Shown: positions 40,203 to 60,142 of the stretch, one piece after another
Numbering within the stretch: position 1 is the stretch's first letter
Layout of the letters: each line of letters begins with the position of its first letter
Assembly (NCBI RefSeq): GCF_964204645.1
Contig: NC_134029.1
Span: 16,262,450-16,326,449 of the forward strand
DNA: 64,000 bases
DNA from: Tubulanus polymorphus
Taxonomy: Eukaryota > Nemertea > Palaeonemertea > Tubulaniformes > Tubulanidae
Reading direction: 5' to 3'
Notes under the pieces: generated by a model
What the model was told of the DNA's origin: nothing
The model's input: only the letters and a program-made list of their open reading frames with translations
Databases searched by the model: none
Position numbers and translations under genes: made by a program

Positions 40203-40282
40203 AGTAATTGGAAAAGTAGGCGTTCATACCAGAGGACGAGAGGACGAGACACCACTCATCACCACAAGTAATTTTTTTTCCT
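40203..40282. repeat. Left terminal inverted repeat of element B
   Basis: 80 bp matching 59998-60077 in reverse with about one mismatch (GGCGTTCATACC versus GGCTTTCATACC). It includes AGAGGACGAGAGGACGAG and CACTCATCACCACAAGTAA. The similarity fades into AATAACTGGG, which corresponds to the TATAAATGGA start region of the gene at the right end. Confidence 0.95.
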
Positions 40283-40333
40283 AATAACTGGGAGAGAATG
40301 AACACCAGCCAGAACATAATAATGTTAATAAAA

Positions 40334-43300
40334 ATCAATATTATTGCCAATATTGTAAAAAATACGTCGATACATCTAATAAAACACGACATGAAAAAAC
40401 TGTAAATCATATAAAAAATGTAATAGATTTTGAAACTCCAGAAAATTCCAATGAAAGAAAAGAAAGATTAGAAAATATGAATGTGGATGAAATAAAATGT
40501 GAAGTTTGTAATGAATTTATAGTAAAAAGGAATTATAATAGACATCTCGAATCACAAAAACATTATAAAAACTTAAATAAAAATGTTTTAGGATCAGAAT
40601 ATTTTGATGATAAACCTCAAAAAGTAAAAAAACCAACTTCAAAAACTAAATCCATTTCAAATAAACCTTACATGGAAAATGTTAGAAATTATATTGATTC
40701 ACTAGAAATAAAAGATACAATTGAAATTTTAGAAACATTACATAGTAAAATTGGTCCTGCAGCTATTATATTTAGATTTTTTAAAGGTACAACAATAGAA
40801 GATTATAGTACATTTAATGAAATAATAGAAAAAATACTAGATTTGATAACAGATGTTGAATATCCAAAAATTAGTATCTCTGGGAAAGTAAGTTTTATAA
40901 AGTCAGAAGAAAAAATGAATTATAATATTCAAACACACTCTGAAGAAATAATTTCAAAAACACAAATAAAAGAGAAGTTAGAAAAAATATTTAATGAATT
41001 TAAACGTCATATTGAAGAAAGATATTTTGAGGGTTCTGGCTTAACATTGAATGAAATTATATATTTAGATTTAAATGTTTATAATACAAAAAGAAATAAA
41101 ACATCAAAAAGTAATAAAATGTTTAAAAATGATTCAAACTTTATAACAGAAAAGGATATTAAAGCATCATCTTATATTAAATTACCATTTACAACAAAAG
41201 CAGTAATAAATATTCAAAATGAAGATAATAAATGTTTTCTATGGTCAATTATTAGTTGCTTACATCCAACAGAAGATATGACGCATAGTTTTAGAATAAC
41301 AAATTACCGGAAATGTGAAACATTATATAAAATTGATCAATATCCAGTAACTATAAAAATGATTCCTAAAATAGAAAAAGTTAATAATTTAAAAATAAAT
41401 GTATTTGAATTAATGCAATTACCAAAGACAAAAGGTGAAAATATTTAAGATTATACATTGGAAGCTTTATATTTAACAGAATATTATGATGATGAAAATG
41501 CTATAGATTTGTTATATTATAAAAAAGATGAAAATGAACATTATATGTGGTTAAAACAAATTGATTTATTCTTTAGAACAGAAAGTGATCACCATAATAA
41601 AATTTATCTATGTAGAAAATGTTTATCTAAATTTATGACTGAGAATACATTATTAAAACATAAAGAATTATGTGATAATAAAGATTTTTGTAAATTAATA
41701 ATGCCAACAAAAAAAGATTGTAAGTTGAAATTTACTAATCATAAATTTAAGAATATTGTTCCATTTGTAATTTATGGGGATTTTGAATCGTTGAATAAAG
41801 AATTAACTGATCAAGATAGAAAAGAAATATATAACAAAAAGCAATTATTAAAATCAATGGATAAAGGAAATGAATTAAATGAAGATATAATTCAAGACCC
41901 ACCAATTATAAATACAATTAAAAAAGTTCATCAAAGAGCTGCTGCTTATGGAATTTACATAAAATCAAATTATCCTGAATTATATGAAAGTCAATATATT
42001 TCTTTTAGAGGTGAAAATGTAGGTAATGATTTTTGTGACAAAATGATTGAATTAGAAAGTGATTTTGCAAAATTATAAACAAAAATAAAAGAATAGTTAT
42101 GACAAAAGAAGATGAAATTGATTTTAATTATGCAACTCATTGTTGTTATTGTGAAAAACGTTTTTATTCATTTGATAAAAAAGTTAGAGATCACGATCAT
42201 TTAAATTCAAAATATCGTGGAGCTGCTCATGAAGATTGCAATTTACAAGCTAAAAAAGTAAATTTCGTTCCAATATTATTTCATAATTTATCCGGCTATA
42301 ATACCCATCTATTTATAAAACAATTATCAAAGAAATTGGGTACAATTAATCAAGAAATAGAAGAACATAATGCTATGAATGAAGCAAATGTAAGAAAATA
42401 TGATTTTAAACTATTAGCTAAAACATCTGAAAATTATATTTCATTTCAATTTGGTTGCATTAGATTTTTAGATTCTTATAGATTTCTAGCAAGTTCATTA
42501 GATAATTTATCAAAAAGTTTAGTTGATAATGATTTTATAATAACACGATATTATTATCCAAATGAACAAGATTTTAAATTATTGAGATATAAAGGCGCAA
42601 TTCCTTATTCATTTTATAAAACACATGATGATTTTAATGTAACAGAATTATTAAAAGATCAATTTTATGATCAATTAAAAGAGGAGTATGTAAAAGACGA
42701 AGTGTTTAATAGAACATTAAATATTTGGAATCATTTTAAGATGAAAAATCATGGTGAATTAGTTGATTTATATCTAAAATCAGATGTTAAGATTTTGGCT
42801 GACATATTTGAAAAATTTAGAGAAGTTAATTTGAATCATTTTAATGTTGATCCTTGTTATTGCTACTCTAGTCCTGGTTTAACCTGGCAATGTGGTTTAA
42901 AATATACAAATGTAGAATTAGATTTATTAAAAGAACCAGATATGGTTTTATTATTTGAAAAATCAATTAGAGGTGGAATTAGTGGTGTTATGGGAGATAG
43001 ATATTTTAAAGCAAATGATGAATATAAATTACTATATATAGACGTCAATAATTTATATGGTTGGGCAATGATGCAACCTCAACCATATAAAAATTTTATA
43101 TTAACAGAAGTTGAAAATGATGATAAAACTAATTGGGAAAGCGCAATTATGAGTTTAGAAGATGAAGCACCAATTGGTTATTTCTTTGTAGTTGATTTAG
43201 AATATCCTGAAAATATAAAGTTTAAAACAAGAAACTTACCTTATTGCTCAGAACATTTAACTGTAGATGATAGTTATTCAAGTGAATACCAGAAGAAAAT

Positions 43301-45034
43301 AAAACCGAAAGATCAGGTTTTTACAGAAAAATTAATACTTACTCAAAATAATAAATACAATTATATTGTTCATTATAGAATGTTAAAATTTTATCTAAAA
43401 CAAGGAATGAAATTAAAGAAAGTACATAGATATATTGAATTTAATCAATCGAAGTGGTTAGAAAAATATATAGATTTTAATACTCAACAGAGAACCATAT
43501 CAAAAACAGATTTTGAAAAAGATTTCTTCAAATTAATGAATAATAGTTTTTATGGTAAAACATGTGAAAATATTAGAAATAGAAATGATATTGAATTAGT
43601 AAATAATTCTGAAAGATTAAGACATTTACAATCAAGTCCTAGACATTTAGGAAATAAAAGATTTGAAGATTATTTAACAGCAGTTAAATTAAAAAGAACT
43701 TCAATGAAATTTAATAAACCAATATTTATAGGTTCAACTGTTTTAGAAATATCAAAATTATTAATGTATGATTTTTATTATAATGTTTTACAACCACTTT
43801 TTGGGGAAAAGCATATTGAAATATTATATTTTGATTCTGTAACAGCTGACACCCCAATATTATTAAAATGTAATAATAAGATATTGGTAAGAAGAATTTC
43901 AGAAATAATTCCAAAACAAAATGAATGTTATATTTCATATGGTGAAAAAGAATTAATACAAATAAATGGATTAATGGATGTTTGGACAAGAAATGGATGG
44001 AAAAAATTAAAGAATATTATTAGGCATAAAACAAATAAGAAAATCTATAGAGTTAGAACTAAATTAGGATTTGTAGATGTTACAGAAGATCATAGTTTAA
44101 TTAAACGAAATGGTGATGAAATAAAACCAACTGATATAAAAATTGGAGATGAATTATTACATAAAAGATTTTTCCAAAGAATGAATCATATGTCATTTGA
44201 TGAAATTATTGATAATATTTATAATATAGAACCCGAAACATTAGAAGAAAAAGAATATTTTATCAAAGGATTTTTCATGGGCGATGGTTCAGCAGGTGTG
44301 TATAATTATGTTTGGGGTAATAAATATTTTTGGTATTTATGCAATCAAGACTTAAAATTATTAGAAAGAACAAAGAAATTCTGTGAAGAAGTTTATCCAA
44401 ATAAAACATTTAAAATCATGGATGTTATGAAATCATCAGCAGTTTATAGAATACTTGTGAATAATCCTAAAGATTTTGCTATAAAATATAATGATGAATT
44501 CTATATTCATGCAATAGTAAAAAGTAATACTTCAACTAAAGAAAAGATAGTACCAGATTATGTATTAAATGCAAAAAATAATTTAAGAAAATGGTTAAAA
44601 ATCAAGACAAATGACATAACAAAAGACTTAAAAACATTAAAACATCATTTTGATTTTAGCAATTATCCCAAAGATCATGAACTATTTAGCAATGATAATA
44701 AAAAGATTCCTGGTAAATTTAAAGATGAATTAGGGGGTGATGAAATGATTGAATTTGTTGGGATAAGAAGTAAAATGTATAGTTACAGAACAAAAGATCA
44801 TGAAGCTAAAAAGTTAAAAGGAATAACAAAACATGTGGTTGATAAACATATAGAATTTCAAGATTATATAAAGTGTTTATATAAATCAATTGTAATGAAA
44901 CACAAAATGAATTGTTTAAGATCAGAAGATCATGAGATGTACATTAATGAAGTTGAAAAAACTAGTTGAAATCCATTTGATGATAAAAGGCATATTTTAG
45001 ATGATGGTATAAAAACATTACCTTATGGTTATTA
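40334..45034 (+). pseudogene. Protein-primed PolB of element B, broken, intein-interrupted
   Basis: Open coding with an N-terminal C2H2 finger (YYCQYCKKYVDTSNKTRH) starts at ~40334 without an ATG in frame; a second finger (CEVCNEF) follows the first Met at 40477. Other parts: Exo I YGDFESL, endonuclease VII-like CCYCEK…VRDHDH…RGAAH, Exo II NLSGYNTHLF (Asn where element A has Asp), Exo III YLKSDVKIL, motif A DVNNLYGWAM, motif B NNSFYGKTCEN. Motif C is cut after YFD by an intein (43836-44594) and its second half is absent. Breaks: TAA at 41446-41448, one-base loss at ~42076, TGA at 44967-44969. Loss of motif C would abolish polymerase activity even without the other breaks. Confidence 0.92.
43836..44594 (+). 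other. Intein remnant inserted in PolB motif C
   Basis: About 253 codons absent from the element A polymerase. It begins SVTADTPILLKC directly after YFD, a classic intein block A with Ser as first residue. Block B is VDVTEDHSLIKRNG (T..H). Homing endonuclease motif is FIKGFFMGDGSAG (LAGLIDADG type, block C). After about PDYVLNAKNNLRKW, the extein resumes at LKIKTND. The second endonuclease motif, the block F region and the terminal HN dipeptide are not present, and the extein residues equivalent to TDSYI are gone too. So one in-frame deletion removed the intein's C-terminal end and the neighbouring polymerase residues. Protein splicing cannot occur. Confidence 0.88.
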
Positions 45035-45640
45035 AAACATAAAATCAATATCATCATAATCGAAATCACTATTGGCTTCTTCATTTTCATTTAATTGTTC
45101 AGGTTCTTCTTCCATTCCATTTTTCTCATTTAAATAAAGTTCTATCTTGTTCCACATTTCATCTCGCTCTCTTTGTTTCTTTTTGTTTGTTAATTCATCA
45201 AATGGAATTATAATATCTATGTTTAAATAATTTACAATCTTATTTAAAAAGAATTCATAATTTATTGAATCTGTTATTCTATTATTCAAATGATACATTA
45301 ATATTTGTTTGAATATTTTTTTTATATTTTTCATATCTTCTTCTGTTAATTCAGGTTTTTCATAATAATCGTTAAATAATAAATATAAATACATTTTCTT
45401 TTGTTTTGTGTTAAATGTTGATGGAATAATTGTTTTTATAATGTCTTTTTTAGTTATTTCACCATTTTTATATTCTATTATTTTCATTTTTTCAAGCCAT
45501 TGCATATATTCTGGTGTATGATCTTCTATAGAAACTATTTTAAAAATTTCATCAAGATAATTAGGGTTTTCTGTTTCTTCACAGAAAACCCTATTGAAAT
45601 TCGCGTGATTATTATTATTTTTTTTTCCCCTTTTCCACAT
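45032..45640 (-). CDS. Acidic-tailed Polinton protein of unknown function
   Basis: An intact 202-residue ORF converging on the PolB 3' end (a few bases of overlap). It starts MWKRGKKNNNN, has a charged helical middle, and a very acidic C-terminus ending DFDYDDIDFMF. No catalytic motif is visible. The leader contains CTTTTAACAAAAAC, resembling that of the zinc-finger gene at 49917. The ORF starts very close to the left edge of the foreign block (~45655), so regulatory sequence may be lost. Acidic C-termini with a terminal aromatic are seen in some DNA-binding replication proteins, but this is only suggestive. Confidence 0.6.
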   Translation of the reverse strand: MWKRGKKNNNNHANFNRVFCEETENPNYLDEIFKIVSIEDHTPEYMQWLEKMKIIEYKNGEITKKDIIKTIIPSTFNTKQKKMYLYLLFNDYYEKPELTEEDMKNIKKIFKQILMYHLNNRITDSINYEFFLNKIVNYLNIDIIIPFDELTNKKKQRERDEMWNKIELYLNEKNGMEEEPEQLNENEEANSDFDYDDIDFMF

Positions 45641-46170
45641 AGTTTTTGTTAAAAGTGTAAAAGCTTCCTTACCTTACCGCTGTCGCCGATACAATCCGTA
45701 TGATGTCCTTCAGCTCACTTCAATCTCCAGATACTGCATGGGAATTTTGATAAATCCACGTTATAAAGGCACTGTCGAGCCGTAAACATCGGAAATTTGG
45801 CTCGATTCAATTAGTAGCCATGTTGTGTTTTCTTACCGATATTTCTCTCTTCTTTTCGAGGAAGAGCTATCGAATTATTCCCTCTCTTCTCCACAATCAA
45901 TTTCAAAGTCAATTTTATGAATTTATTGCTCAGCGGGTCCGAGTCCAAGAGTTTACGAGTCCGGCGTTCGCGTGTCTGACAGGTTTACGGGCATTTGTTT
46001 GTTACCTCTTTAATATTTTTGATTTCTTGTTATTCCGGTTATTTTATTTAAGTATATTGCTGATCAGTTCATGTAACCAAAAGCGTCAATAAACAGACTT
46101 TGAATTGATCAAGTTTAAATCAAGGTCGTTGAGTCGCGGAAGGCTACTAGAATTACGTTCGTCTTCGTCT

Positions 46171-46667
46171 GGCATCAGACCACAATTAGGTTAGTAGCTC
46201 GAAGATGCGTAGGGCCGGACCGGACCCCAAAAATAGTACCTAGAGTGAAGAAGAGGTCCCCCATAAATGTTGCCATAATTTCTGCAAATGGGATAGGTAA
46301 CGAATTTCGGTTATATGTATGAAATCCATTGATCCTGAGAGACAGATCGATGATGAAATAAGGGATTCCCTGGACTTTTTTTGCTTGGAGTAAGGGTACC
46401 AAACACGGTGGGGATTCCCTTAGATATTTGGCTCGGATGTACTGGCATACCTGTACTGGGATACCCCTCCTTTCTAAAGGTTTGATTATTTCAAAAGTTA
46501 GGTTGGGTATGTGGGGCGAAAACCACTTCAATGCGTAGCTAAGATGCTGGCCTATGAGCCATAAGCAGGATTTCCCCTGAATTTACGCGCTTATATATGA
46601 ACTAAACTCTCGAATTTCTTGTTTTTACTATAGGATATAGAAGATTTTGGAATAGTGGTCTGAGCTC
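46171..46667. mobile_element. 498-bp-family MITE, copy 2
   Basis: 497 bp, nearly identical to 27204-27701. Flanked by GTCT on both sides (46167-46170 and 46668-46671), a different 4-bp duplication from copy 1. Confidence 0.9.
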
Positions 46668-46880
46668 GTCTCAGAGAGAAAACAAACGACAGAAAAGTAT
46701 CAGGTGATTATCGATAGCCTACAACGGTACACACAGTTGACAAACAGTGTTAGGCCTGTGCCGGTTGGTGCGTACTGGGACTAAATATACTGGTTGGTCA
46801 GTTGGTTCGGTTGTGAAGTGTGGAAGCTAAGATTATAAGAAAGCCTACCGGTATTTATTTGTCTATAGGCCTATTATATA

Positions 46881-47221
46881 GAAGCCAATACCATTTTAAG
46901 TACGTAGTTGTTAACCGCACGTGACTGTACGGTGATCTCCACAGGTTAACCGCGTACGTGAGGTCCCTACTAAGTCTATAATGCCAATCGTGAGTTCCTA
47001 GTAGCCAATACCATTTTAAGTACGAAACTGTAACGCGTACGTGACTGTACGGTGATATCCACAGGTTAACCGTACGTGAGTTCCCTACTTACGCCGTACG
47101 TGAGTTCCTAGTAGCCAATACCATTTTAAGTACGAAATTGTAACGTGTACGTGACTGTACGGTGATATCCACAGGTTAACCGTACGTGAGTTCCCTAAAA
47201 ACGCTGTACGTGAGTTCCTAT
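46881..47221. repeat. ~111-120 bp tandem repeat, 3 units
   Basis: Units begin GCCAATACCATTTTAAGTACG at about 46883, 47003 and 47114. They include GTACGTGACTGTACGGTGAT and CCACAGGTTAACCG, rich in CGTACG-type dyads. Confidence 0.85.
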
Positions 47222-47316
47222 AATCTGCAAACGCGCATGCGTAAAAGAATAGAGTTTGGGTTAGGTGAGGCTAGGCTATTTGTAAATCAAATTTCATCCA
47301 CCCACCAGTTACGTTC

Positions 47317-47390
47317 TGTGGCACAGTGGGTAAATCACTGGACTACTACTGGATTTTTTTTTCGTTTTGTTTTGAATCCCAATATTGCAA
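47317..47390 (+). repeat. tRNA-like (SINE-type) sequence
   Basis: GTGGCACAGTGGGTAAATCAC resembles a tRNA A box and TTTTGAATCCC a degenerate B box ~50 bp downstream. The spacing is right for a Pol III promoter, but the arms do not fold into a standard tRNA, so this is more likely a SINE head or decayed tRNA relic. Confidence 0.4.
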
Positions 47391-47967
47391 GTCTGAGCGT
47401 CAACGTACTCACATATGGCTAACCTGTAGAAATCACCGTACAGTCACGTAGGCCTACAGGTAACAACAGCGTTTTAAGTATTAAGTGAGTACGACAAGCC
47501 TACCATGCCTATGTACTACAAACACAACTTTTTCCCTCTCGTCGGCCCTACAGTGATGTTACTATAACTGGTGCCATTATAATTTAATATAAGATATCTC
47601 TCTTCGACCGATCTTGTACCATAGAAGATCTGATTCTTTCAACTCAAGGAAAGTGATTCAACACGATCGACATAACACTGCAGTAACTAACCGTTCATTT
47701 CATTTAGTCCTATGTACTTTTTAGCCAATTTGGATTTGATTGTAATTGAAACTCTGGAACTGTTAACAAAAGACAAGTAAGACAAGTTGAAAAAACACAA
47801 GTTATGCTTGATTCTCATGTTCAAATTTAATTCAAATTTATTTTATTACATCATATTTACAAAGCATATCATTGGTTCATACAGTAATAAAAATTAGGGC
47901 AGAACAAATATTATTACAGAAACTCCAAAAAGGCAATGAATTTCTATGACTAAATGAACATTATTTT

Positions 47968-48523
47968 TAGCCCACTTGGGACTTTAGTCCCAGCGGGCTA
48001 TTGCGTTCACTTTTCGTCCGTCGTCCGTCCGTAGACGGAAATCAGTTATTTTAGGAAGTTTTGAAGACGCTTCAATGTAATGTCTTGATATTTGGGTTTC
48101 ACATGTATCTACCCTAGACACATCTTCAGCTCAAAAACTGGCCCTGTCAGAATCAAGATGGCCGACTGGCAGCCATTGTTGTTCGCCAAAATCAACACTT
48201 TTTACACATTTTTGAACTTTTTGAGGGAAATTTTGAAGATGCTTTGATCAATAACCTTGATCTTTCCGATATATGTGAATGCCCCTGGGCCCATCAGCAT
48301 AACAAAAATTGGGATACGGACTCAAGATGGCCGTCCTATGACCTTTTTTAGTGCCCAAAAATGTCAATTTTGGCCCGAATTCTGAGTTTGCCATTTCTCA
48401 TTGCAATTTGTGATGGGTATTCTTTGAAAAGGGATGTTTTATACCTTTGATACCTGAATTGTTAGATTGTTGAGCATTCGGAACCACTTCCCAAGTGGGC
48501 ATGGTGTCCCTGGACCCCTAGTT
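47968..48523 (-). mobile_element. Helitron-like/fold-back element, inverted short copy
   Basis: In reverse orientation: 3' hairpin end at 47968 (TTTTTAGCCCACTTGGGACT) and 5' end at ~48523 (GGTGTCCCTGGACCCCTAG). Nearly all core repeats are deleted. It is the only reverse-oriented member in the window. A short AATTTAATTCAAATTTATTT stretch just before (47823-47845) resembles a LINE tail on the minus strand. Confidence 0.8.
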
Positions 48524-49127
48524 CTAATAACTCAGATCAAGAGTGACTCTCCAGTTTATTAGGAAACACACGCAACTAATGGAATAGGTTTGATTTACAC
48601 ACATGTTGCAGGTATCAATTGTTTATCACTGTAGAATTTGTAATCCATAAAAGCCAAAATCAACATCAGCCGGAAACCCAGACCAAATAAATTCATAATT
48701 TATTGATTGAATCTACACTACAATATATGTATTTATTCAAATATTTCAATAAAAACATTAACTTCTTAAATCTAATCTATTCTAAATCATAATACGTTCT
48801 TATCTGTGAATTCACTCAATCTATCGGCTCAGCAGGTGCTTAAGATGAGTTCTTAATAGGACAGATCCATTTTTAAGGATGGTGATAATACAGTATCATG
48901 ATGTTTGAATGCCAAAATAAGTGCCTGGTCAAATATATTAATATTTGTGATTGTACGTCCACGTATGTTCGGTTTCAAAGCTGAATCATATTTGACGTTT
49001 ACACAGTGGTTGCATATTAGGTTCGAATCTGTCAATGCATTTTATTCTATGTTTCGATATTTCAATTTACTACAATTCCCATCATTCTGAATGGCTTTAC
49101 AGAAAACCCGTCATCGCTGCTTTGCAG

Positions 49128-49917
49128 CTATATTTTAATTTTGGATCTATGAGAAAATTTCTAGTTTTTTCACCCAATAAATTCTTTTGCCATCCACATT
49201 CATTACAAAATAACACAGTACCATCTTGCCTTATGGTCGCGTAACTACATTGTGGACATTTTTGTTTATAATTTATTGGTAATAGATCTTCATTAAGCTC
49301 TTGGTATTTTCTTACGTTTTCTTTATGTTTTATTGTTCTATTATGTAGATTTGAATTACTTGTTGTAATAATCAATTTACAATATTTACAATAATATGTT
49401 TTTCTTGTTAATTCATTATATTGTTTTTCTAACTTTTCAACTGTTTCTTTATTATCTGGTAACGTTTTCTCATATTTTATTTTTTCTAATAAATTATCTT
49501 TTCTTTCATTGAATTCAGTTTCAAATTTATTAGAAATTTTATCTATATGTGCTTTACGAAATTGATGATTCTCCCAATCTTCTATATTTTCAGGGCTATA
49601 TTTTATTCGACAAGGCTCACAGAAATGATCTTTTATATTATCCTTGTCATAGAATAAGAAAGGTCTTTTCCAAATAACTTCAGGTTCAACTTCAACAGAA
49701 TTACTATTACTTTCATTACTATCAACATTAGCCGTCGTGCCATTAATTTTACACTTCTCTGAATGTTTTTAACATAATTTCTTGAGAATAATTTATTACA
49801 TTTTGGGCAGTTTATTTTAGGGGGTTTATAATTTTCATCATGTTTTTTCGTATGTCGAGCCATATTACTTTTTCTTAGTAGTTCACCACAAATTTCACAT
49901 GCTATCTTCTCATCCAT
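49128..49917 (-). pseudogene. Polinton zinc-finger/coiled-coil protein
   Basis: Starts at 49917 with MDEKIACEICGELL, a C2H2 finger (…MARHTKKH) and a second Cys pair (CPKCNKLF). The frame shifts near 49770, after which a continuous coding track runs on with a further CEPC motif, a long charged coiled-coil-like part, YYCKYCK and a C-terminal ribbon (CPQCSYATIR…CNECGW). It ends at the edge of the foreign block, so the original C-terminus may be cut. The leader has TTTTAACAAAATTTTTCC then TAAATAAATG. Likely a nucleic-acid-binding early or regulatory protein, by inference from the fingers. Confidence 0.65.
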
Positions 49918-49985
49918 TTATTTAGGAAAAATTTTGTTAAAATTAATTTTTAGTGATGAGCGGTAATTTTTTTATGTTATGAATA

Positions 49986-50787
49986 TTGGTAGAATTAAAA
50001 GAATACAGAATATTTGTTGATTCAAGAAGACTTACAAATTATAAATCACATAATTTATTAGTTCAATTAGATAGAGAATTTAAGAATTGTGTAGATTTAA
50101 AATTAGTTAATATAAGTTTATGTAACTCTTTTTACAATATATCAGATAAAACTGATGAACATAGAAGCCTTTTTATTTTTGATAAGGATAAAAGAAAAGA
50201 TTTTCAACTTATGATTACACCAGGATTATATGATTTAGAAACATTAGAGCAAGAAATTAATAGAAAAGCTCGCATTAGATTAGGTAGTGATTCTAAATTT
50301 AATATTAAATTCATAAAAAGTGAGAGCTCTAATAAAATTAAAATAAAGTTTGATAATGATTATTATAAATTTCATCAACATACAATAGAAAGATATCTTT
50401 ACATGGTAAAAAAACCTATAGCTAAACTGTTAGGAATTCCTCCAGATAAAGATATTAGAGAAAACATATACGGTAGATCAAACTTAATACCTTTTACACA
50501 TTTTTATATTTATTGCAATTTAATTGACCCAACAAAAACATTTGAAGCAACTAAAGATATAACTTGTAATTCTAGTATATTAAACATTTTACCATTGAAG
50601 AATGTTAAACAATTTGGAACGCAAATAAATTATAATTTAGCTGAATGTGATTTCAAACCTTGTATTCCACATTTTAATAATTTTAAATTTTAAAGAAATC
50701 ATAATGGTTATTTAATTGATTTGAATAACTTTCCTGTGATATATGAATTAATTATAAGATGTAAAGAGTATTTTTTTCATTATATAA
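49986..50787 (+). pseudogene. Penton-like minor capsid protein, element B
   Basis: Closely matches the element A gene at 2698. The initiator is now TTG (VELKEYRIF follows), where element A has ATG, and the usual TAATTTTTTT leader is present but its TAAATAAATG end is degraded. Typical segments: SLCNSFYNIS, AKLLGIPPDKDI and NLIPFTHFYIYCNLI. A TAA at 50691-50693 precedes further in-frame coding (NGYLIDLNNFPVIYEL), so the C-terminus is also cut. Polinton pentons form the vertices of the predicted icosahedral capsid. The position upstream of the capsid gene cluster fits; identity is from resemblance, not structure. Confidence 0.62.
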
Positions 50788-51142
50788 ATGGATATAACTG
50801 TTGGACCGAGTATATGTTTTGGATTTAATTTTAAACGTGAGAAAGAAATGAAATTTAACATTAATGATGTAATTACACAAATCAAAAATTGTATTGTATT
50901 ATATCATTGTATTTTTTAATGAAACAACAATAGATAAAGAAACTTTTAATGTAGAAAAGATTACTAATTTAATTAGAGAATCTTTAAGATTTTATGAATT
51001 AGATGAAGATTTTATCATCGATGATATTAAAAAAATAATAATTGAAATATATACAAATGAAACTAGTAATGAAATAAATGTTGAATTAATCATCACTAAA
51101 ATAACTAAATATTTTGAAGATAGTAATTTTTTTGATAAATAA
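50788..51142 (+). pseudogene. Small Polinton protein, frameshifted
   Basis: The ATG at 50788 lies in TTTTTTTCATTATATAAATGG, the late-type motif of this element. The first ~37 codons (MDITVGPSICFGFNF…) run to ~50895, then coding continues in a different frame (FFNETTIDKETFNVEK… to 51142). The C-terminal part is charged and helical. Its TAA stop directly precedes the next ATG. Function unknown. Confidence 0.55.
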
Positions 51143-51364
51143 ATGAGTGATAATAAGTGGATAATAACTGGATTATATAATGGCGCCTTACTATCAGTTG
51201 GAACTGTTGGTTATTCAATGGTATTAAAAAAAGTATTCAAAATGGGAAGTGTTAATGTTGATAGATTTGATATAAATGATATCTTAAAATTAACGTTAGC
51301 AGTAACTTTATCTAATTTAACAATTGATTATTTGGAAAAACAAAAATATATTCCTCCCATATAA
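51143..51364 (+). CDS. Small membrane protein, intact
   Basis: 73 residues with an N-terminal hydrophobic segment (LYNGALLSVGTVGYSMV) and a second at LKLTLAVTLSNLTI, ending KYIPPI. The start is fixed by TTTTTTTGATAAATAAATG. Such short two-segment proteins are typical companions of Polinton capsid genes, possibly virion or membrane-interacting; no enzymatic motif. Confidence 0.6.
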   Translation: MSDNKWIITGLYNGALLSVGTVGYSMVLKKVFKMGSVNVDRFDINDILKLTLAVTLSNLTIDYLEKQKYIPPI

Positions 51365-51388
51365 ATGCGTAATTTTTTCATTAAATAA

Positions 51389-51811
51389 ATGGCTTATGCA
51401 GTTATAACTATTATAGGATCGGCAATTGTTAACGCTTTAGCATTTACTGGTGGTAGTTATTTATTCAAGCATATTGATGAAAATGGTTCATTATCAGAAC
51501 AAAAAAGACATAACTTAGCATTAGAGGAATACAATAAAGCAGAGGAAGAATATAGAGAAAAGAAACAAAACTATGTGGATTATATTAACAAAGAATTATA
51601 TGATCAGAATATTTCACATAGAGATTTTCAATCAGTTGATGATGCCATGAGTTTATATAACGCAGTAACCAATAAAGAAAAATTATATCTACATAAACCT
51701 ACAATATCAGATTATTATACCCCAAGTAATGAACAACAAATATATGAAATAATATGGATTTTAGGCGGAACTGTTATTGTTATATTTGTTGCTTATAAGT
51801 TTACTAATTAG
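51389..51811 (+). CDS. Conserved Polinton membrane/coiled-coil protein, intact
   Basis: 140 residues. N-terminal hydrophobic stretch (IIGSAIVNALAFTGGSYLF), central charged coiled coil (EEYNKAEEEYREKKQNY), a conserved FQSVDDAMSLY…YTPSNEQQIYE block, and a C-terminal transmembrane helix (IIWILGGTVIVIFVAYKF). The start lies in TAATTTTTTCATTAAATAAATGG. I recognise the pattern from other Polintons/adintoviruses, where the protein is uncharacterised; a minor virion protein is likely. Confidence 0.65.
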   Translation: MAYAVITIIGSAIVNALAFTGGSYLFKHIDENGSLSEQKRHNLALEEYNKAEEEYREKKQNYVDYINKELYDQNISHRDFQSVDDAMSLYNAVTNKEKLYLHKPTISDYYTPSNEQQIYEIIWILGGTVIVIFVAYKFTN

Positions 51812-51832
51812 TAATTTTTTTTTGCTAAATAA

Positions 51833-52258
51833 ATGGATGATAATATTGATATTATTCCTCATGATATAAATAAAACTAAATTAAAAATATATTTAGAAAA
51901 ACAAATATTAGAATTTGAAAGTGACTTAAAGATAAAAAAGAAAAAATATTTAAAAAGTAAAATTATATATTATCTTATTATTAGTGGTTCGGTTACAATT
52001 AGTTCTGTAATAACATTTCTAGCAATATTCAGTCCATTAACACCTTTAGCTATATCAATTGGTGTATTAGGATTAAGTTCAAGTGTTTTAACTGGTATAA
52101 GTTCAAAATTAAATATAAAAAGTAATAAAGAAAAAATTAAAACTAATATAAAAGAAATTAATAAATTAAAGAACACACTAGATTATATAATAAGTTTAAA
52201 TGGCCATATAACAGTTGAAGAACAAGATAAAATATTAAAAGAATTAATAAATTATTAA
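51833..52258 (+). CDS. Polinton membrane protein with paired hydrophobic helices
   Basis: 141 residues: charged N-terminal helix, then hydrophobic SVTISSVITFLAIFSPLT and LAISIGVLGLSSSVLTGI, and a Lys-rich coiled-coil C-terminus (KEKIKTNIKEINKLKN). The leader is TAATTTTTTTTTTGCTAAATAAATGG. Function unknown; by position a capsid-associated or membrane-active protein. Confidence 0.6.
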   Translation: MDDNIDIIPHDINKTKLKIYLEKQILEFESDLKIKKKKYLKSKIIYYLIISGSVTISSVITFLAIFSPLTPLAISIGVLGLSSSVLTGISSKLNIKSNKEKIKTNIKEINKLKNTLDYIISLNGHITVEEQDKILKELINY

Positions 52259-52260
52259 TT

Positions 52261-53577
52261 TTTAGTTTTCCAAAAGCTTTCCAATATAATAAATCAATTA
52301 AATATAATATTCCAGCAATAGATTTTAATAAAGATATTTCATATAGAAATGAAGTTTTAAATTCATTAATTGATTTATATATTTATGTTACTGAAAGTAA
52401 TAATTTTCATGTAAAGATGGAAAATATATTTCATGTGTATACACTTAATTTCAAAAATTTAGATGAGGCAAAACAATGGTTATTAAAATCTAATATGAAG
52501 TATTGGCAGAACCAATTAAATTTTGCTGTTTATTGTGCAACAACAGGATGTGGAATTAGTTGGAATGATCATTTAAACAAACCAAATTTACCATTGATGT
52601 TATCACTTTTTAGATTTCATACTTATTTTCAAATAAAATTAATATTAGATGAATTAGAATGTCCTTTACCAGGTTCAAAATATTTTAAAGAATTGAATAA
52701 TAATATTAATTTTTCTAAGTTTTATAAAATATGTAATGAATTTAATTTTAATTCAAATAAAGATTTTAGAGCAAAAATTGGAACAATGGGTGGATTAGGA
52801 ATATTATATACTAAAGAATTTGGAAAAATAATAACAAATTCAGATATAAGAACACTAAATTGGAATGAATTACCAACATATTATGATAATATACAACCCC
52901 AAAACAATAATGGTTGGGTTAATTTTATTTTAGAGAATAGTGAAGGTTTTACTAAAGCTGGAATACAAAGAATAAATCAATCGATTAGAACTTATTTGAT
53001 ATGTATTTTAGGTGCGCAAGTTGAAACAAGATCCCCAATAATTGGAAATGATAACACTTCATTCGATGCGCAGAAACAATTTAAAGTATTATTTGAAGAT
53101 TCAATTCATAATGATAAAAATAGATCGATTCCAGAAAACATTGTAAGATATCAAAATTATTTAGATAAATCACATATTAGATTAAATTATTGTATAGGCC
53201 CTAATTTGTTAATTATTTCTAATGATTTAATATTAAAAATGGGTAGTATAATTGGTTATAATAATTTAATTAAAACTGCAACAATAGATAATTCATTTGG
53301 ATTAATTGATATAAATAAAAAGATTATCACTGCTCCAAAATTAATGGAAGGTGAAAAAAATAAAAAACACATTCAATCAACAGAAACTAAAACTAATAAT
53401 ATTAAATTAAATAATGATTCTAAACCGGATTACAATACATCAGAAAATATTAGAACTGATTAAATTCAACATGAAATAATTAAACTAAATGATGATAATA
53501 AATCCCATGAAAATACTAAATTAGCTTTAACTTGTATAGGAATTGTAATCGGAGGAATATTATATTTTAAATTTTAA
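52261..53577 (+). pseudogene. Large conserved Polinton protein of unknown function
   Basis: Coding is open from at least 52261 (FSFPKAFQYNKSIKYNI) without a plausible ATG or late motif, so the start has been lost. The first Met in frame is 52417. Characteristic stretches: NFAVYCATTGCGISWNDHL, LLDEL-type helix with CPLPGSKYF, and GWVNFILENSEGFTKAG…IRTYLICILGAQ. A TAA at 53461-53463 is followed in frame by a Lys/Asn-rich linker and a C-terminal hydrophobic tail (LALTCIGIVIGGILYFKF) to the stop at 53577. The family recurs in animal Polintons; no role is established to my knowledge. Confidence 0.65.
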
Positions 53578-53593
53578 TTTTTTTATTATATAA

Positions 53594-54917
53594 ATGGATG
53601 TAGAAGGTGGAGAAGATATTGGAATGGATCCTTTTGATGAACCTGGTATAAGTGATGAACAACCACCTGATTTTGATGAAACAAGCTTTAATGATGGTAA
53701 TGAGCCAGGATATAATAATAATTTAAATATGCCTGATTATATCAAAAATGCAGAATCACAATTAAATCCTGAAAATTTAAACCCAGATTTAGTAAAACAA
53801 GATTTAGATAATTTAAACAAAATACCCAAATTAGAACGTATAATTGAAAATTCTAAACTTAACATAAATGATGAAGACGTTGGTCTTTTAGCATATCAAT
53901 TAAAATTTTTAGATAATGGTAAATGTTATTATCGTTTGAAAGGTGATTATTATATTGATATCACTTTTAAAAATAATAAAAAAATATTAGCGGAATCAAC
54001 TTTGAAAAGTTTAAAACCAGATAAAATTAAAATAATAAGTAATAGTAATGAAATAACTGATGTTACACAAAAAGAAATAGATGATAATATAGACGTATTT
54101 AAACAAAGAATTAATGAATTATTTGAAATAATCAAAAAGAAATCAGAAACAGAAACAACTTCTGAACAGAATATAACTTCCAAAAATAGTAAAATTAAAT
54201 CAAATAAAGTTCCAATTGAAAAACTTTTACCGAATGGATCAAAAAATTATGTATTTGGAAAAAGCATTAACTAATGCAAATAAAGAAATAGAACAACTAA
54301 AGTCTGATTTAGATCATCAAGTAATTGATGAAATAGAATATAGGCAAAAAGAATTACGTTTAGAAAAAGAAATTGATAATTCAAAAGATAATTTAGAAGT
54401 ACAAAAAGAAGAAATTAAATTATTATTAAAATCATATGATTATAATATTAATAGATTAAAAGTTATTTTTAAAGATTTGTTGATTAAACCAAATTCTGAA
54501 ATATCATTAAAAGATAGAATAAAGTTATTTTTTAAATTAGAAGGAATAACAATTCTTTGAATTCTAACAGCTGTAACTATGTTATTTACAACAATTGGTT
54601 TAGCAATATCAAATTCTTTGAAATCTACTCCTACTCCCAATAAACCGGATAAACCCCCGAATGATAATAATTCTATACAAGATAAAGTTAAGGATGGTTC
54701 AAAAAAATTAGCAAAATATTTATGGGAACTATCTAAAAAATCTGCTGCAGCTTTACCAGGACTTATTGCATCAATTGTTGGTTTTATATTGAAATCTGCA
54801 GGAAACATTATTAACTTTGCTGCTGAACATATTATTTTATTTTTAATTACAGTTGTAAGTGCTATTATTTTTGGGTTAGTGAATATGATAACAAAAAGAT
54901 ATCAAGAAAAAAAATAA
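53594..54917 (+). pseudogene. Coiled-coil membrane protein of Polintons, broken
   Basis: Starts in TAATTTTTTTATTATATAAATGG with an acidic, Pro/Asp-rich N-terminus (DPFDEPGISDEQPPDF). The frame shifts near 54255 into a coiled coil (LTNANKEIEQLKSDLDHQ). A TGA at 54558-54560 interrupts before a hydrophobic, conserved C-terminal domain (ELSKKSAAALPGLIASIVGF, then IILFLITVVSAIIFGLV). The C-terminal domain is one I recognise from many Polinton/adintovirus hypothetical proteins. Its position directly upstream of the capsid gene suggests a virion membrane or assembly role. Confidence 0.65.
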
Positions 54918-54951
54918 TAAAAAATAAATAATTAATTTTTTTGCTAAATAA

Positions 54952-56155
54952 ATGAGTGGGAGTTATATAAGTCCTTCTAAGATTTCTAGAATATCTAATG
55001 CTATTAAAGCAGAAAGATCACATCATATAATTACTCATAACCCTTCAAATATTAATCCCGATGAAACTTTATATGTTAGAATTCCTAGATTAACACAAAA
55101 TACTTTTTATGTTCCAAATAGTATTTATTTATCAGCTGATATAAAAGTAACTGGCCATGATAACAATTATGTTGTTGATAATGTTGGGAGATATTTGATT
55201 AAAAAATTAACTATAAAGATTGGTCCAGAAACAGTTTTCTCATTAGATGATTATAATTTATTTATGCATTATAAAGATTTATGGTTAACTAAAGAAAATA
55301 GAAATAATATGATATTTCAAGGAATCCAATCAGAAAACCATAATAAATTAAGATCAGGAGCTAATGACGCAATAGTAACTCGTGCCACAGATAATTTGAT
55401 TAAAAAGATTTATGGCAGCAAATATAAAATTCCATTAGACTTTGAATTGATAAATAATAATGCACCTTTATATAAATACGCAATTCAAGAAGATATTATA
55501 TTTGAGATAACATTTGCTCCTGTAAATGAAATTGTATTATCTAGCGTTGTTAAAGATATGGGTTATAAATTACCGAATATATGTTTAGAATATAACACAA
55601 TAACTAATGAAAATATTGCTAGCACAATTCAAACTCAATACAATCAAGGATTTTCATTATTATATGATTATATTGATAAATTTAAAACTGTAACTATTAA
55701 TGCAAATGATGAAATAATTAATATTTTTTACCATTGCAACATATACTAATGGCGCAATAAAGGTTGATAATTATTATAATCCTGAAATAACAAAAGTAGA
55801 AATAACTATTGAAGGAATAGCAAATAAAATATTTTGTCAAGGAATGAGAATGATAGATCAATGGCCAGAAATTAGAAAACATTTTATGAATGAAAAAGTA
55901 AAATCATCTGAAAATTGTAATATTAATCAAATTGATTATTATACCGGTAATAAATATGCATTATGGTTAGATTTTAGAACAACAGAGGATAATTCATTAC
56001 ATGGTTCTGGGAAAAAACTACAGAACACTAAAGATGGAATACAATTATTCATGAAAAAGAAAAAAGGAAGCTTAAATTTTAAAATGCACATTTATATTAT
56101 ATCTGACGCGCAATTGAATATTGTAAATTCACAATTAGATAGTATTCAATATTAG
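54952..56155 (+). pseudogene. Major capsid protein (double jelly-roll, hexon-like), frameshifted
   Basis: Starts in TAATTTTTTTGCTAAATAAATGAG with MSGSYISPSKISRI. N-terminal jelly-roll features include ETLYVRIPRLTQNTFYVPN, YLIKKLTIKIG and LDDYNLFMHYKDLW. Near 55728 the frame is lost, giving a premature stop at 55749; coding resumes in another frame with GMRMIDQWPEIRKHF and the conserved ALWLDFRTTEDNSLHGSGK block to the stop at 56155. Total size (~400 residues) is a little short of many Polinton capsid proteins. In this family the protein forms pseudo-hexameric capsomers. The split makes capsid formation from this copy unlikely. Confidence 0.8.
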
Positions 56156-56185
56156 AAATATAAAGTTAAAATTAAGGATATATAA

Positions 56186-57313
56186 ATGGGTGGTAAAAAA
56201 ACTCCTAATACTAAAGAACAATATTTAAGAAATTTATATTACAACCCTGAGAGTTCGGTTGCTTATTCTTCTACCAAAAATATATGGAGTAAAGTAAAAC
56301 AAGATAAATTAGATAAGATAATCCCACACAATTTAGTTAAATATAAAGATATAAATGAATTTATCTTAGAACAACCAACATACACAACACATAAAAAAAT
56401 TGTTAGAAAATATAAAACTCGTAAAACTATGGTAAGTTATGTAGATCAACAGTGGCAAGGAGATTTAATTGATATGAAAAATGTTAAGAAAGATAATGAT
56501 GATTATTGGTGGTTATTGAATATAATTGATATTTTTAGTCGTTATGTATGGAGTTTCCCACTTTATAGAAAAGATGCTGTACAAACATCAAATGTTTTAA
56601 GAAAATTTCTTTCGGATGATAAACTTAAACCAGAAAAAATACAATTTGATGATGGAAAAGAATTTGATAATTCACTTGTCCATGAACTCTTAGATAATCA
56701 TAATATTAAATATTTTTCAACAAAATCGGATAAAAAAGTAGCAGTTGTTGAACGATTTAATAGAACATTAAGAACAAGAATGTGGAAATATTTTACAGCA
56801 AATAGCACTTATAAATGGATTGATGTTTTACCAAAATTGATAGAAGGATATAATAATTCTTATCATTCTTCTATCGGAATGAAACCTATTGATGCTAGAA
56901 AACCTGAAAATGCTGAAATTGTTTGGAATAATTTATATGGAGCATTTCTTGTAGATGATTTTGGTGAACCTGAATTTAAAGTTGGTCAAAATGTTAGAAT
57001 TTCTAAGTATAAAAAGATATTTGACAAAGGATACGATCGGAATTTTACTAGGGAAATATATAAAATAAAAAAGGTAATAACAACAAAACCATATGTCTAT
57101 AAATTAGAAGATTTAGATGGTGAAGAAGTTGATGGCTACTTTTACGAAGAAGAATTAAGTTTAACTACTGAAAATCTAGAACAAGAATATAAAATGGAAA
57201 AAGTATTAAAAACAAAAACTATTAAAAGAAAAAAATATTCTTTAGTAAAATGGGTTGGATGGCCAGATAAATTCAATGAATGGATATTATCAAGTAAAAT
57301 TAAAAATATATAA
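56186..57313 (+). CDS. rve-family integrase with C-terminal chromodomain, intact
   Basis: 375 residues with an uninterrupted frame. The DDE core has D93 in QQWQGDLIDM, D155 in IQFDDGKEF and E189 in VVERFNRTL, a 34-residue spacing typical of retroviral-type integrases. Conserved YNNSYHSSIGMKP follows. The C-terminus (~335-375) is a chromodomain (YSLVKWVGWPDKFNEW). It would join the element's ends to host DNA with the 6-bp duplication seen at 40197/60078, and the chromodomain may steer it to modified histones. The start is in GGATATATAAATGGG without the T-run. The stop is followed directly by the ATPase ATG. Confidence 0.93.
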   Translation: MGGKKTPNTKEQYLRNLYYNPESSVAYSSTKNIWSKVKQDKLDKIIPHNLVKYKDINEFILEQPTYTTHKKIVRKYKTRKTMVSYVDQQWQGDLIDMKNVKKDNDDYWWLLNIIDIFSRYVWSFPLYRKDAVQTSNVLRKFLSDDKLKPEKIQFDDGKEFDNSLVHELLDNHNIKYFSTKSDKKVAVVERFNRTLRTRMWKYFTANSTYKWIDVLPKLIEGYNNSYHSSIGMKPIDARKPENAEIVWNNLYGAFLVDDFGEPEFKVGQNVRISKYKKIFDKGYDRNFTREIYKIKKVITTKPYVYKLEDLDGEEVDGYFYEEELSLTTENLEQEYKMEKVLKTKTIKRKKYSLVKWVGWPDKFNEWILSSKIKNI

Positions 57314-57922
57314 ATGAATAAAGAATTATTTATATTTGAGCCTCATAATATGTTAATTTCTGGCGTAACAAATTGTGGAAAAACTTATTTTATATTAAAT
57401 TTATTAGAAACTGTTTATGAAAACTATTTTGATAATATAGTATTATTTTGCCCAACATATGAATTTAATCAAACTTATGATAGAAATATTACTAGAAATA
57501 ATAAATTTATTATATTAGATCCTAAAACAGTAAAAGAAAATTTAGATAATTGTATAAAAATAGCAATTGATATTTATAAAGGATCAAATACATTATTCAT
57601 TATAGATGATTGTGCTAATCTACATGATTCAAAAGTTAGAGAAAGTGAGTTATGTTATTTAGCTTTTTCTGGCAGACATTTTGGGATAACAACTTGGGTT
57701 TAAAATCAAAAATATAATTCAATTGTTAAAGATTTTAGGGAGAATATAAGATTTCTAGTTTTATTCTACAATAAAGATAGAAAATCGATGAAAAATGCAC
57801 TTGAAGAAAATGATATTATTCCACATGATTTACATAATGAATATATGGATAAGTTGAAAAATATTAAAAGATCAAAATTACTATTTAGATTACAACACCC
57901 ATTTAAATATGAATTTATTTAA
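57314..57922 (+). pseudogene. FtsK/HerA-type DNA packaging ATPase with one stop
   Basis: Begins at the ATG overlapping TATATAAATGAA. Walker A is GVTNCGKT (residues 17-24) and Walker B is LFIIDDCA (~95). A TAA at 57701-57703 stops translation at residue 129; the same frame then continues (YNSIVKDFRENIRFLVLFYN… to the stop at 57920-57922), giving an ancestral length of ~202. This is the A32-like ATPase that pumps DNA into capsids in Polintons and related viruses. The stop removes the C-terminal third, including the arginine/sensor region. Confidence 0.85.
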
Positions 57923-58210
57923 ATTCAACTGGCTTGTTAATCTAGTTGAATTCTAGTTACATTCTAGTTGAATTCTAGTTATAAGTAGTTGAAACAAAAA
58001 TCAACTAGATTTAACAATATTTTAACTAGCTTGTTAATCTAGTTTAATTCTAGTTACATTCTAGTTGAATTCTAGTTATTGGTAGTTGGAACAAAAATCA
58101 ACTAGATTTAACAAGAAATAAACAAAAACAACAATATTTCAACTAGCTTGTTAATCTAGTTGAATTCTAGTTACATTCTAGTTGAATTCTAGTTGCAACA
58201 ACACAATTAA
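57923..58210. repeat. Non-coding CTAGTT-rich tandem repeat
   Basis: Three units of ~98-117 bp beginning near 57930, 58028 and 58145 (GCTTGTTAATCTAGTT). Each is built from TCTAGTTGAATTCTAGTTAC elements followed by the inverse-like AACTAGATTTAACAA. It occupies the whole gap between the ATPase and the next gene. Confidence 0.85.
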
Positions 58211-58226
58211 TTTTTTTGTTATATAA

Positions 58227-58832
58227 ATGGGAGGTGAAAAGAAAATAAAATCTAAAAATGGTGATGTTCCAATTGAAAAAACTTTATATGATTTAGGAAT
58301 AACAGAAAACAAATTAATTCCAGATGATGGTGCTTTAAATAATGTTACAACAAATAATAATTATGAATATTATCTTTATTGTAAACATCAATTAGAAATA
58401 TTAATAGCATCTGGAAAATGTAAAAATTTTGTCGGTAAAAATTTAACTTATAATGAACTAGATACAATGAAATCAGATGAAATTATTAGATTATTTAAGA
58501 TTTATGAAGCCGCGAGAACAGCTAGAATTAATAACGCGATATCAGAAAATGTAGTAAAAGGTTATAGTAAATTATGTATTTATATACTACCAATTGAAGA
58601 TGAAAATAGATTATATGCTGATTTAAAAAATGACTATTTAGTTATGACTGAATTAAATAAATGGATTGGATATTTATCATTTCAATTAGGTGGATTTATG
58701 ACATTATTATCAACTGGAGTTATAATATTTTCAAATATTGAAAGTAAAAATATTTCTATAATAAATGAACAAGGTGGAAGAAGTGAAGGAATTAACTGTG
58801 AAGAAAAAACCGAGATCACAGAAACAAATTGA
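58227..58832 (+). CDS. Polinton protein of unknown function, intact
   Basis: 201 residues starting in TTAATTTTTTTGTTATATAAATGGG. Features: N-terminal basic and polar part with GDVPIEKTLYDLGITENK, a YEYYLYCKHQLEILIA…KNFVGKNLTY block, and a C-terminal hydrophobic region (LGGFMTLLSTGVIIFSNI). The VPIEK motif also occurs in the coiled-coil protein at 53594. The 3' end overlaps the next gene in another frame by ~68 bp. No family assignment. Confidence 0.55.
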   Translation: MGGEKKIKSKNGDVPIEKTLYDLGITENKLIPDDGALNNVTTNNNYEYYLYCKHQLEILIASGKCKNFVGKNLTYNELDTMKSDEIIRLFKIYEAARTARINNAISENVVKGYSKLCIYILPIEDENRLYADLKNDYLVMTELNKWIGYLSFQLGGFMTLLSTGVIIFSNIESKNISIINEQGGRSEGINCEEKTEITETN

Positions 58833-59133
58833 ATGGTCTCGACAATTAGGAATTAAATCACAAGAATATAAAAAAGCTGTAAAAGAAAAAATAAGTAATT
58901 AAAATGTTAGTAAAAATAGTGAAAATATTGTTATTTCTACTCCTTCTGATAATAGAATATTTGATAAATGTCTATATTTTACATTTGGATTTGTAATTGT
59001 ATTCATTTTGATTGGGTGTAATTGGTATAAGAAATCAAATAAAATTCATGATATTAATAATTCTGAAACAACTGCTATCAAAAATGAAAATACTTCTGAA
59101 ATTCCAAAATTGATAATAAAAAAAATTGATTAA
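58765..59133 (+). pseudogene. Small basic plus transmembrane Polinton protein, one stop
   Basis: The ATG at 58765 lies in TATAATAAATGAA within the preceding gene. N-terminal basic motif KKKPRSQKQIEWSRQLG…EYKKAVKEK, then TAA at 58900-58902. The frame continues to a transmembrane helix (CLYFTFGFVIVFILIGC) and a stop at 59131. The KPRSQKQIEW motif is one I associate with small Polinton proteins. With the stop, only the basic part (45 residues) would be made. Confidence 0.5.
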
Positions 59134-59314
59134 TATTTTAGAAAAAAAGCAAAAAAAAATAATTTTTTTTTAATTAATTGAATATCTCACTACTTTTGTC
59201 TATCACTGTGTGGGTGCTGTTTATGGCACCATCTATGCTGAGCAATTAAATTGTCCAGATAAGTCATTTCGGATTCTAGATATTCATTATTTTTATTAAT
59301 TTATTTTTTTAAAT

Positions 59315-59641: not shown

Positions 59642-59776
59642 TTATTAGGAAAAGAAATTACTTGTGGTGATGAGTGGGGATTACTTCCCCTTGTATATAA
59701 CAAGTACGCTATTAACCGTTCTCACCCAAGCCTCACAGCATCTATTAGGAGCAGTAATTATAACTGTCCAGATAAG

Positions 59777-59992: not shown

Positions 59993-59997
59993 TTATA

Positions 59998-60077: not shown

Positions 60078-60142
60078 GATGTTTGCCTGTGAACGGACTC
60101 AGGAGTTGCATATGAGCTATCCACGTTCCCGTCTCGACCCGT

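Follow-up and report, generated by a model that had tools for sequence, protein, structure and literature searches.

Some family B DNA polymerases (PolB) of giant viruses and archaea, represented here by a mimivirus protein (P0198) and a Promethearchaeota protein (P0189), carry an intein directly after the Asp of motif C, between YGD and TDS. These inteins begin with Ser or Cys and, by the extraction rule used in this study, end in Asn followed by Thr. An insert with the same position and the same kind of ends was found in the nemertean Tubulanus polymorphus, and a piece of it interrupts the DNA polymerase gene of a Polinton, here called element B, in a 64,000-nucleotide stretch of contig NC_134029.1 (positions 16,262,450 to 16,326,449, forward strand; hereafter the window). 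The giant-virus and archaeal inteins sit in PF00136-type PolB, whereas the Tubulanus intein sits in a protein-primed family B polymerase (pPolB, PF03175), in a Polinton and in animal chromosomes. Inteins at the same site are also carried by metagenome pPolBs (P0001, P0002, P0003, P0005 and P0006), which are known, as to host and element, only as metagenome proteins.

Inteins are stated to be absent from metazoan genomes in passages of PMC5784728 and PMC6805012, one of which calls this absence 'a puzzle yet to be explained'. The passages of PMC11071308 on homing endonuclease domains in polinton pPolBs and Tlr1-like helicases ascribe them to intein invasions, citing Jeong 2023. Those pPolBs are likewise interrupted by an insert bearing a homing endonuclease, and the same explanation is proposed there; the passages name no insertion point, splicing blocks or copy numbers, and the Tubulanus case goes beyond them in its defined motif C site, complete splicing halves, mostly intein-free sister family and measured constraint. 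The section of PMC12220804 on Polinton-like virus endonucleases names GIY-YIG and HNH, and not LAGLIDADG; PMC7593156 concerns, by its title, a mitochondrial homing-endonuclease element in a nuclear genome; and the excerpts of PMC5718144, PMC3671162, PMC10120064 and PMC7765530 add nothing on inteins in animal chromosomes. Among the papers listed in searches of an open-licence library, none reports an animal-genome intein in its title or abstract opening. In the Tubulanus case, an insert of a known kind occurs in a new setting, one from which inteins have been stated to be absent and for which a single earlier hint is in print.

The Hedgehog/Hint domains of animals have Hint-type autoprocessing in common with inteins (passages in PMC5784728 and PMC6805012). 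Unlike these domains, the Tubulanus insert has both splice junctions and LAGLIDADG motifs. The animal Hedgehog/Hint domains are not known to carry out extein ligation or to contain an endonuclease.

Results

The insert in motif C of the Polinton polymerase

Element B is a Polinton: it encodes a pPolB, an rve integrase and an A32-type ATPase, and is bounded by inverted repeats and a 6-bp target-site duplication (Table 1). A reading frame without a stop codon runs over 42063-44969 on the forward strand and corresponds to the C-terminal region of a pPolB (DNA_pol_B_2). Within it, 253 codons at 43836-44594 lie directly 3' of the YFD of motif C and, with a probability of about 0.9, encode residues 1-253 of a LAGLIDADG-bearing intein, a type that family B polymerases carry between YxD and TDS. 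The piece begins with SVTADTPILL, which corresponds to intein block A, and both Ser1 and the TEDH of block B (TxxH) are present. It exceeded the cut-off of the TIGR01445 intein_Nterm profile (E 1.8e-7, 32.1 bits; cut-off 24.5) and matched PI-PkoII (2cw7) by sequence in PDB (E 6.7e-5). Only the first LAGLIDADG motif is left, the second, with its acid D262, being deleted; the LAGLIDADG_3 cut-off was exceeded in both of the complete copies tested from the same genome.

The limits of the piece are given by a second Polinton, copy A, which lies on the minus strand at about 2.3-7.2 kb of the window, belongs to the A type described below and has an empty site. The polymerase arms of the two copies align at 3628-4047 against 43416-43835 and at 3177-3612 against 44595-45030. 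Opposite the 759 bases of element B that separate these arms, copy A has 15 (3613-3627, minus strand), which encode T-D-S-Y-I; thus, the boundaries of the intein piece are exact.

Against the complete copies, the window copy shows a 321-bp in-frame deletion comprising 102 intein codons (residues 254-355) and five C-extein codons, with one T common to both sides of the breakpoint. Since the C-terminal splicing half and five extein codons have been deleted, the window copy is, by its sequence, a truncated and dead relic, unable to splice or to encode a working polymerase. Upstream of this frame, the gene probably continues in different ones (40288-41448 and 41449-42078), so that the pPolB gene of element B is broken by frame changes as well as by the deletion. 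Copy A shares the arm at 41539-41864.

The earlier note, made from the sequence alone, had read this segment as an intein in motif C of a Polinton polymerase, shortened by a single in-frame deletion that took the C-terminal splice half along with extein residues. The profile match above its cut-off, the exact limits from copy A, the 321 bp missing relative to the 1065-base complete copies, and the inverted repeats, duplication, integrase and ATPase of the element all agree with that reading; the profile search for Hint and LAGLIDADG domains that it proposed was positive for TIGR01445 and, in both complete copies tested, for LAGLIDADG_3. Its wording that the polymerase is split between YFD and TDS was right about the insertion after YFD and needs amendment for the other side: the window copy retains YFD and has no TDS, which is known from copy A and other copies.

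Complete inteins in the same genome

The genome holding the window comprises 267.8 Mb in 77 contigs. A genome-wide search with the 253 residues yielded at least 150 scored matches from 531 first-look candidates. The pattern of the five-prime intein junction was found at 269 places (153 + 116) and that of the three-prime junction at 241 (133 + 108); 17 further places fit a three-prime pattern one base shorter. The A run in the last intein codons at the three-prime junction is often one base short, with the frame broken (for example at L020, L021, L022 and L026); this may be real, or it may be an assembly error in the homopolymer.

Twenty-six loci were examined, and in 18 of them the span from junction to junction is 1065 bases without a stop codon, encoding 355 residues with a terminal Asn. 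For a count of individual residues, the first 355 codons had to be open and to end in Asn, and 19 of the 26 loci entered. S1, T83, D85, H86, D150 and D337 are each present in all 19, D262 in 18 (N in the remaining one), and Thr occupies position +1 in 18. The complete copy at L005 (G000:C5:14886397-14890155) carries Asn instead of the acid of the second LAGLIDADG motif, and by its sequence this copy may still splice while its endonuclease is inactive. Filled copies differ in the two residues preceding the terminal Asn (QK 29, AV 17, CF 17, AK 14, and others; n=100), and a Lys-Asn end is common among the related inteins extracted.

Constraint and predicted fold

The ratio of nonsynonymous to synonymous substitution rates (dN/dS) of the intein was 0.26 in the 18 complete open copies of the 26, and by part it was 0.21 for residues 1-110, 0.30 for residues 111-320 and 0.18 for residues 321-355. 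In the same copies the flanks gave 0.05 (N-extein) and 0.13 (C-extein), and dS was 0.178 in the intein, 0.198 in the N-extein flank and 0.130 in the C-extein flank. As judged from these substitution patterns, the intein is under purifying selection. These values indicate that it was kept as a protein during the multiplication of the family, for about as long as the flanks. Several of the filled copies hardly differ from one another, so the multiplication is recent on that scale.

A fold model of the complete intein of one locus, built with seven aligned sequences, reached a mean predicted local distance difference test score (pLDDT) of 74.9 and a predicted template modelling score (pTM) of 0.82; the other four models averaged 64-68. 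By Foldseek, the best PDB matches were two VMA inteins with endonucleases, TliVMA and PhoVMA (E 1.5e-13), together with PI-PkoII (E 4.9e-12), followed by PI-SceI; I-DmoI was also matched (E about 1e-3). In BFVD, four of the first five matches were viral DNA polymerases (phycodnavirus, pandoravirus, Megavirus and marseillevirus), and the other was an unnamed protein.

Two Polinton families with filled and empty sites

The Polinton copies form two families, A and B, which are about 80% alike in DNA. All 28 filled loci (27 distinct places), which were chosen by their intein, belong to family B. Among 60 places with the empty-site pattern, the first 60 of 536 hits and located on contigs C1 and C2, 58 were assignable, 57 to family A and one (L082) to family B. 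Since these samples had been chosen by the state of the site, the whole genome was recounted by the first codons of the downstream flank, with reversed-pattern controls giving 0 in all four cases. Places with a B-type flank numbered 218 filled and 5 empty, and those with an A-type flank 12 filled and 480 empty, which makes 485 empty places by the flank-typed patterns. Almost every site of family B is therefore occupied by the intein, against few in family A. The idea that family A has no intein at all, which rested on 60 places chosen as empty, was abandoned once the 12 filled A-type places were found.

Families A and B split at 100/100 in a tree built from the upstream flanks of 59 empty and 27 filled copies (86 rows), and L082, one of the five empty places with a B-type flank, is nested among the filled B copies (98/93). 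L082 (G000:C2:12001036-12003459) has B-type sequence on both sides of its empty site, and its frame is open over the stretches read; its sequence and its place in the tree identify it as a precise secondary loss of the intein. The third extein residue is Ala in 57, Ser in 42 and Gly in one of 100 filled copies, and Ser in 96, Ala in two, Cys in one and Thr in one of 100 empty copies, a difference between Ala and Ser that is confounded with family.

At 11 of the 12 filled A-type places (the 12 include G000:C4:10024314), the intein ends in Ile-Lys-Asn. The same end occurs four times among the 100 filled junctions listed, each time at an A-type place. At the twelfth place, the flank is A-type and the intein end resembles those of family B (CCAAAAAAAT, TDA). 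From these sequences, family A seems to carry an intein lineage of its own, either kept from an ancestor or acquired.

Two histories may account for this distribution. Family B may have gained the intein, with the 12 filled A-type places arising by recent homing or recombination from B; alternatively, the common ancestor had the intein, A lost most of its copies, and the 12 represent an old A-type lineage. A gain in B is possible, although it is rather doubtful. It fits the lopsided occupancy of the two families and the one place that joins a B-like intein end to an A-type flank, whereas the Ile-Lys-Asn end of the other 11, confined to A-type places among the listed junctions (4/4), points to a separate lineage. 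Moreover, P0001, which is an outgroup by identity (63-65% to both families, with A and B 75.5% identical to each other), carries the intein, and its intein identity of 62% equals its extein identity of 63%, as would fit common descent. In the extein tree, the branching order of A, B and P0001 was not separated.

It was also considered whether family A resists homing by recoding its site. The nine bases that follow the insertion point in family A have a variability of 0.242, which ranks 4 of 892 overlapping windows, and the best window not overlapping them has 0.206. The codons there vary silently (ACT/ACA/ACC, GAC/GAT and AGT/TCT), and the site Ser codon is alone among 15 in showing a balanced split between AGY and TCN, with one more at 12% (41 of 57 copies used downstream and 32 of 57 upstream). 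On an upstream-flank tree, the numbers of changes were 22 (three states), 15 and 15 for the site codons, against 15-16 for variable downstream control codons with three states and 11-14 for those with two states near balance; seven of the 57 copies had been dropped beforehand and 44 of the remaining 50 were used. The site codons are barely ahead of the controls, and thus the site leads only slightly while recombination among copies is general. Six of the 12 filled A-type places have ACTGACAGT and five have ACAGATTCT, the two commonest haplotypes of the empty places. Given that both common A-type haplotypes are also filled and that recombination is general, the recoding idea was rejected as highly improbable.

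Relatives of the intein

A set of 5.8 billion proteins was searched; the matches considered include 120 listed of 329 hits in one search and, in another, those at a threshold of E 1e-45. Among the matches listed, the pPolB-type proteins with a related intein were P0001, P0002, P0003, P0005, P0006 and the truncated P0122. Their identity to the intein of this genome is 62% (P0001), 49% (P0002), 47% (P0003) and 41-42% (P0005 and P0006). In the five complete proteins, the insert follows an Asp (YGD, YMD, YLD, ASD or SSD) and ends before TDS. The P0002 cluster has 136 member sequences, with 657 kb for the longest contig, and perhaps stems from another genome with many filled Polintons.

The intein tree held 75 rows, thinned by similarity from 129, and was rooted at its midpoint with several long branches. 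All seven pPolB rows, including two from this genome, lie on one side of a branch with 99/94 support, apart from the sampled mimivirus row P0198 and Promethearchaeota row P0189. In the phylogeny proposed by the earlier note, then, the intein was not placed among the sampled giant-virus and archaeal PolB inteins, and a separate clade of pPolB inteins was found. IMG/VR scans yielded three and four loci, two of the seven being the same contig, and L089 and L091 among them are other PolBs with inteins. Eight archaeal loci (Asgard, Woesearchaeota, Diapherotrites and ainarchaeum) were found in a prokaryote genome scan, 24-26% identical where the match is long, and INPHARED gave one match at 25%.

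Relative to family B, intein and N-extein identities are 62/63% for P0001, 52/49% for P0002 and 43-44/49% for P0005 and P0006, whereas P0003 gives 50/23%. The intein alignment rejects a position of P0003 outside the other pPolB inteins (approximately unbiased test, p-AU 0.013 and 0.014). Thus, P0003 is a distant pPolB (22.9-29.2% extein identity) with a 50% identical intein, which indicates horizontal movement. On these sequence comparisons, the intein has mostly descended with its polymerase and has moved at least once between distant pPolBs.

The host genome

The Wnt family (PF00110) gave 39 matches in the genome, eleven of which reach the end of the domain, on C1, C3, C4, C5, C7 and C9; two weak Wnt fragments lie apart, and none of 14 control genomes gave a match. 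Wnt genes are known only from animals. Filled Polintons lie on the chromosome-size contigs C1-C12 (11.5-32 Mb), including all six Wnt contigs. The host of the intein is an animal genome, as indicated by the eleven Wnt domain ends on contigs that also carry filled Polintons.

Other features of the window

Features of element B and copy A are collected in Table 1. Among ten open reading frames (ORFs) scanned, one of them outside element B, no match to a cysteine protease was found; of seven element B ORFs compared with PHROGs, the integrase ORF alone matched; and the ORF at 52417-53463 had no PDB match by sequence. No RNA families or tRNAs were found within the window. Sequence at 47963-48523, inside element B, recurs in inverted orientation at many positions from 0.5 to 22 kb of the window, and may represent a repeat that has inserted into the Polinton or satellite-like DNA common to these places. 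At 21828-24082, endonuclease and reverse transcriptase ORFs probably mark a non-LTR (long terminal repeat) retrotransposon. A 524-residue ORF at 28674-30248 probably belongs to another mobile element; it contains a SWIM zinc finger (E 1.3e-7) and weakly matches an Ulp1 protease.

Table 1. Coordinates of Polinton and intein features in the window
Feature	Position	Strand	Evidence
Polinton element B, 19,875 bp	40203..60077	+	terminal inverted repeats, target-site duplication
Terminal inverted repeats of element B, about 99 bp, 94% alike	40203-40301 and 59979-60077		
6-bp target-site duplication of element B, GATGTT	40197-40202 and 60078-60083		
N-extein part of pPolB, ending in YFD of motif C	42063..43835	+	DNA_pol_B_2 E 7.4e-21
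Truncated intein, residues 1-253 of 355	43836..44594	+	TIGR01445 32.1 bits, PF14890, 2cw7, complete copies
Intein block B, TEDHSLI (residues 83-89)	44082..44102	+	
First LAGLIDADG motif, FIKGFFMGDGS (residues 142-152, acid D150)	44259..44291	+	
Junction of the 321-bp in-frame deletion	44594..44595	+	comparison with complete copies
Remaining C-extein of pPolB	44595..44969	+	match to copy A
Possible capsid protein, weak (Capsid_N)	54952..55749	+	PF16903 E 7.6e-4, below cut-off
rve integrase, weak C-terminal chromodomain	56186..57313	+	PF00665 E 2.3e-10; PF00385 E 0.0037, below cut-off
A32-type ATPase of element B	57314..57703	+	PF04665 E 1.4e-9
pPolB segment of second Polinton (copy A), empty site YFD-TDSY	3484..4083	-	alignment to element B

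Discussion

In the complete copies, the 355-residue insert would, by analogy with known inteins, excise itself after translation. Ser1 would attack the Asp-Ser bond, Thr +1 would take over the chain and the terminal Asn would cyclise, so that YFD is rejoined to TD(S/A) and motif C is restored; an unspliced protein would keep a divided catalytic motif C. The endonuclease part is likewise predicted to cut intein-free polymerase genes, whose repair would copy the insert and let it spread. In the window copy, one in-frame deletion took away the C-terminal splicing half together with five extein codons.

Several observations weigh against this reading. The penultimate His of well-studied inteins assists Asn cyclisation and usually precedes the terminal Asn. 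It is absent here: the residue is K in 16, F in two and V in one of the 19 open loci, and K, V, F, L, A, R or N in the 100 listed filled junctions, one of which also has a stop codon. The predicted splice product is TDA rather than TDS in 57 of those 100 copies, and eight of the 26 loci have an indel inside the 1065-nt span. Pfam Intein_splicing (PF14890) scored the window piece under its curated cut-off (E 1.9e-5, 25 bits; cut-off 35.8) and both complete copies under it as well. The pLDDT of the fold model falls below 50 in the last six residues, and the sample favours intact copies, since its loci had been chosen either as top hits or for the length of their open frames.

The lack of the penultimate His, the variable last residues and the indels would also suit an endonuclease fusion that is dead for splicing and keeps only Hint remains, with the filled copies dead and multiplied in trans by intein-free copies, of whose sites the same genome holds hundreds. 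This explanation is improbable. The residues of the splice halves are constant in the open loci (S1, H86 and the N355 required for entry, 19/19 each); dN/dS is lower in the splicing parts (0.21 and 0.18) than in the endonuclease part (0.30), the reverse of what a fusion of this kind predicts; and the value of 0.05 in the N-extein flank indicates that the filled polymerase itself is constrained. A spliceosomal intron with a coding-like frame, for which nothing speaks beyond the fact of an insert, can be practically set aside, as 355 codons are open in 18 of the 26 loci, the insert evolves as a protein, and homologues occupy the same place in other pPolB and PolB proteins. Contamination by a protist, a giant virus or a metagenomic contig, to which the unnamed metagenomic proteins nearest to the intein outside this genome might point, is equally remote, given that the filled copies lie on the chromosome-size contigs C1-C12, six of them with Wnt exons, and that the element has a target-site duplication.

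An intein thus remains by far the best reading of the insert. The earlier note had held that the intein must once have been active in an animal-infecting or animal-integrated lineage, and had called for a search of the same genome for complete copies. Integration in an animal is borne out by the Wnt ends on contigs with filled Polintons, and the search returned 269 five-prime junctions and 18 of 26 loci with a complete open intein. As to presence, the past tense was too cautious, for the family is large, often complete and constrained; the activity is a prediction.

In sum, this study found complete, constrained inteins at some 240-270 junctions of an animal genome, inside virus-like elements. 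Polintons are a route by which inteins could reach animal nuclei. Because the same gene occurs in one genome as two families, one with the site almost always filled and one with it almost always empty, intein gain, loss and homing in an animal become directly testable. Tentatively, the genome may hold a living population of splicing, homing inteins in an animal nucleus, on Polintons that have multiplied recently, with the intein close to fixation in one family and forming a small separate lineage in its sister family; if this were true, the gain, loss and transfer of inteins could be followed inside one animal.

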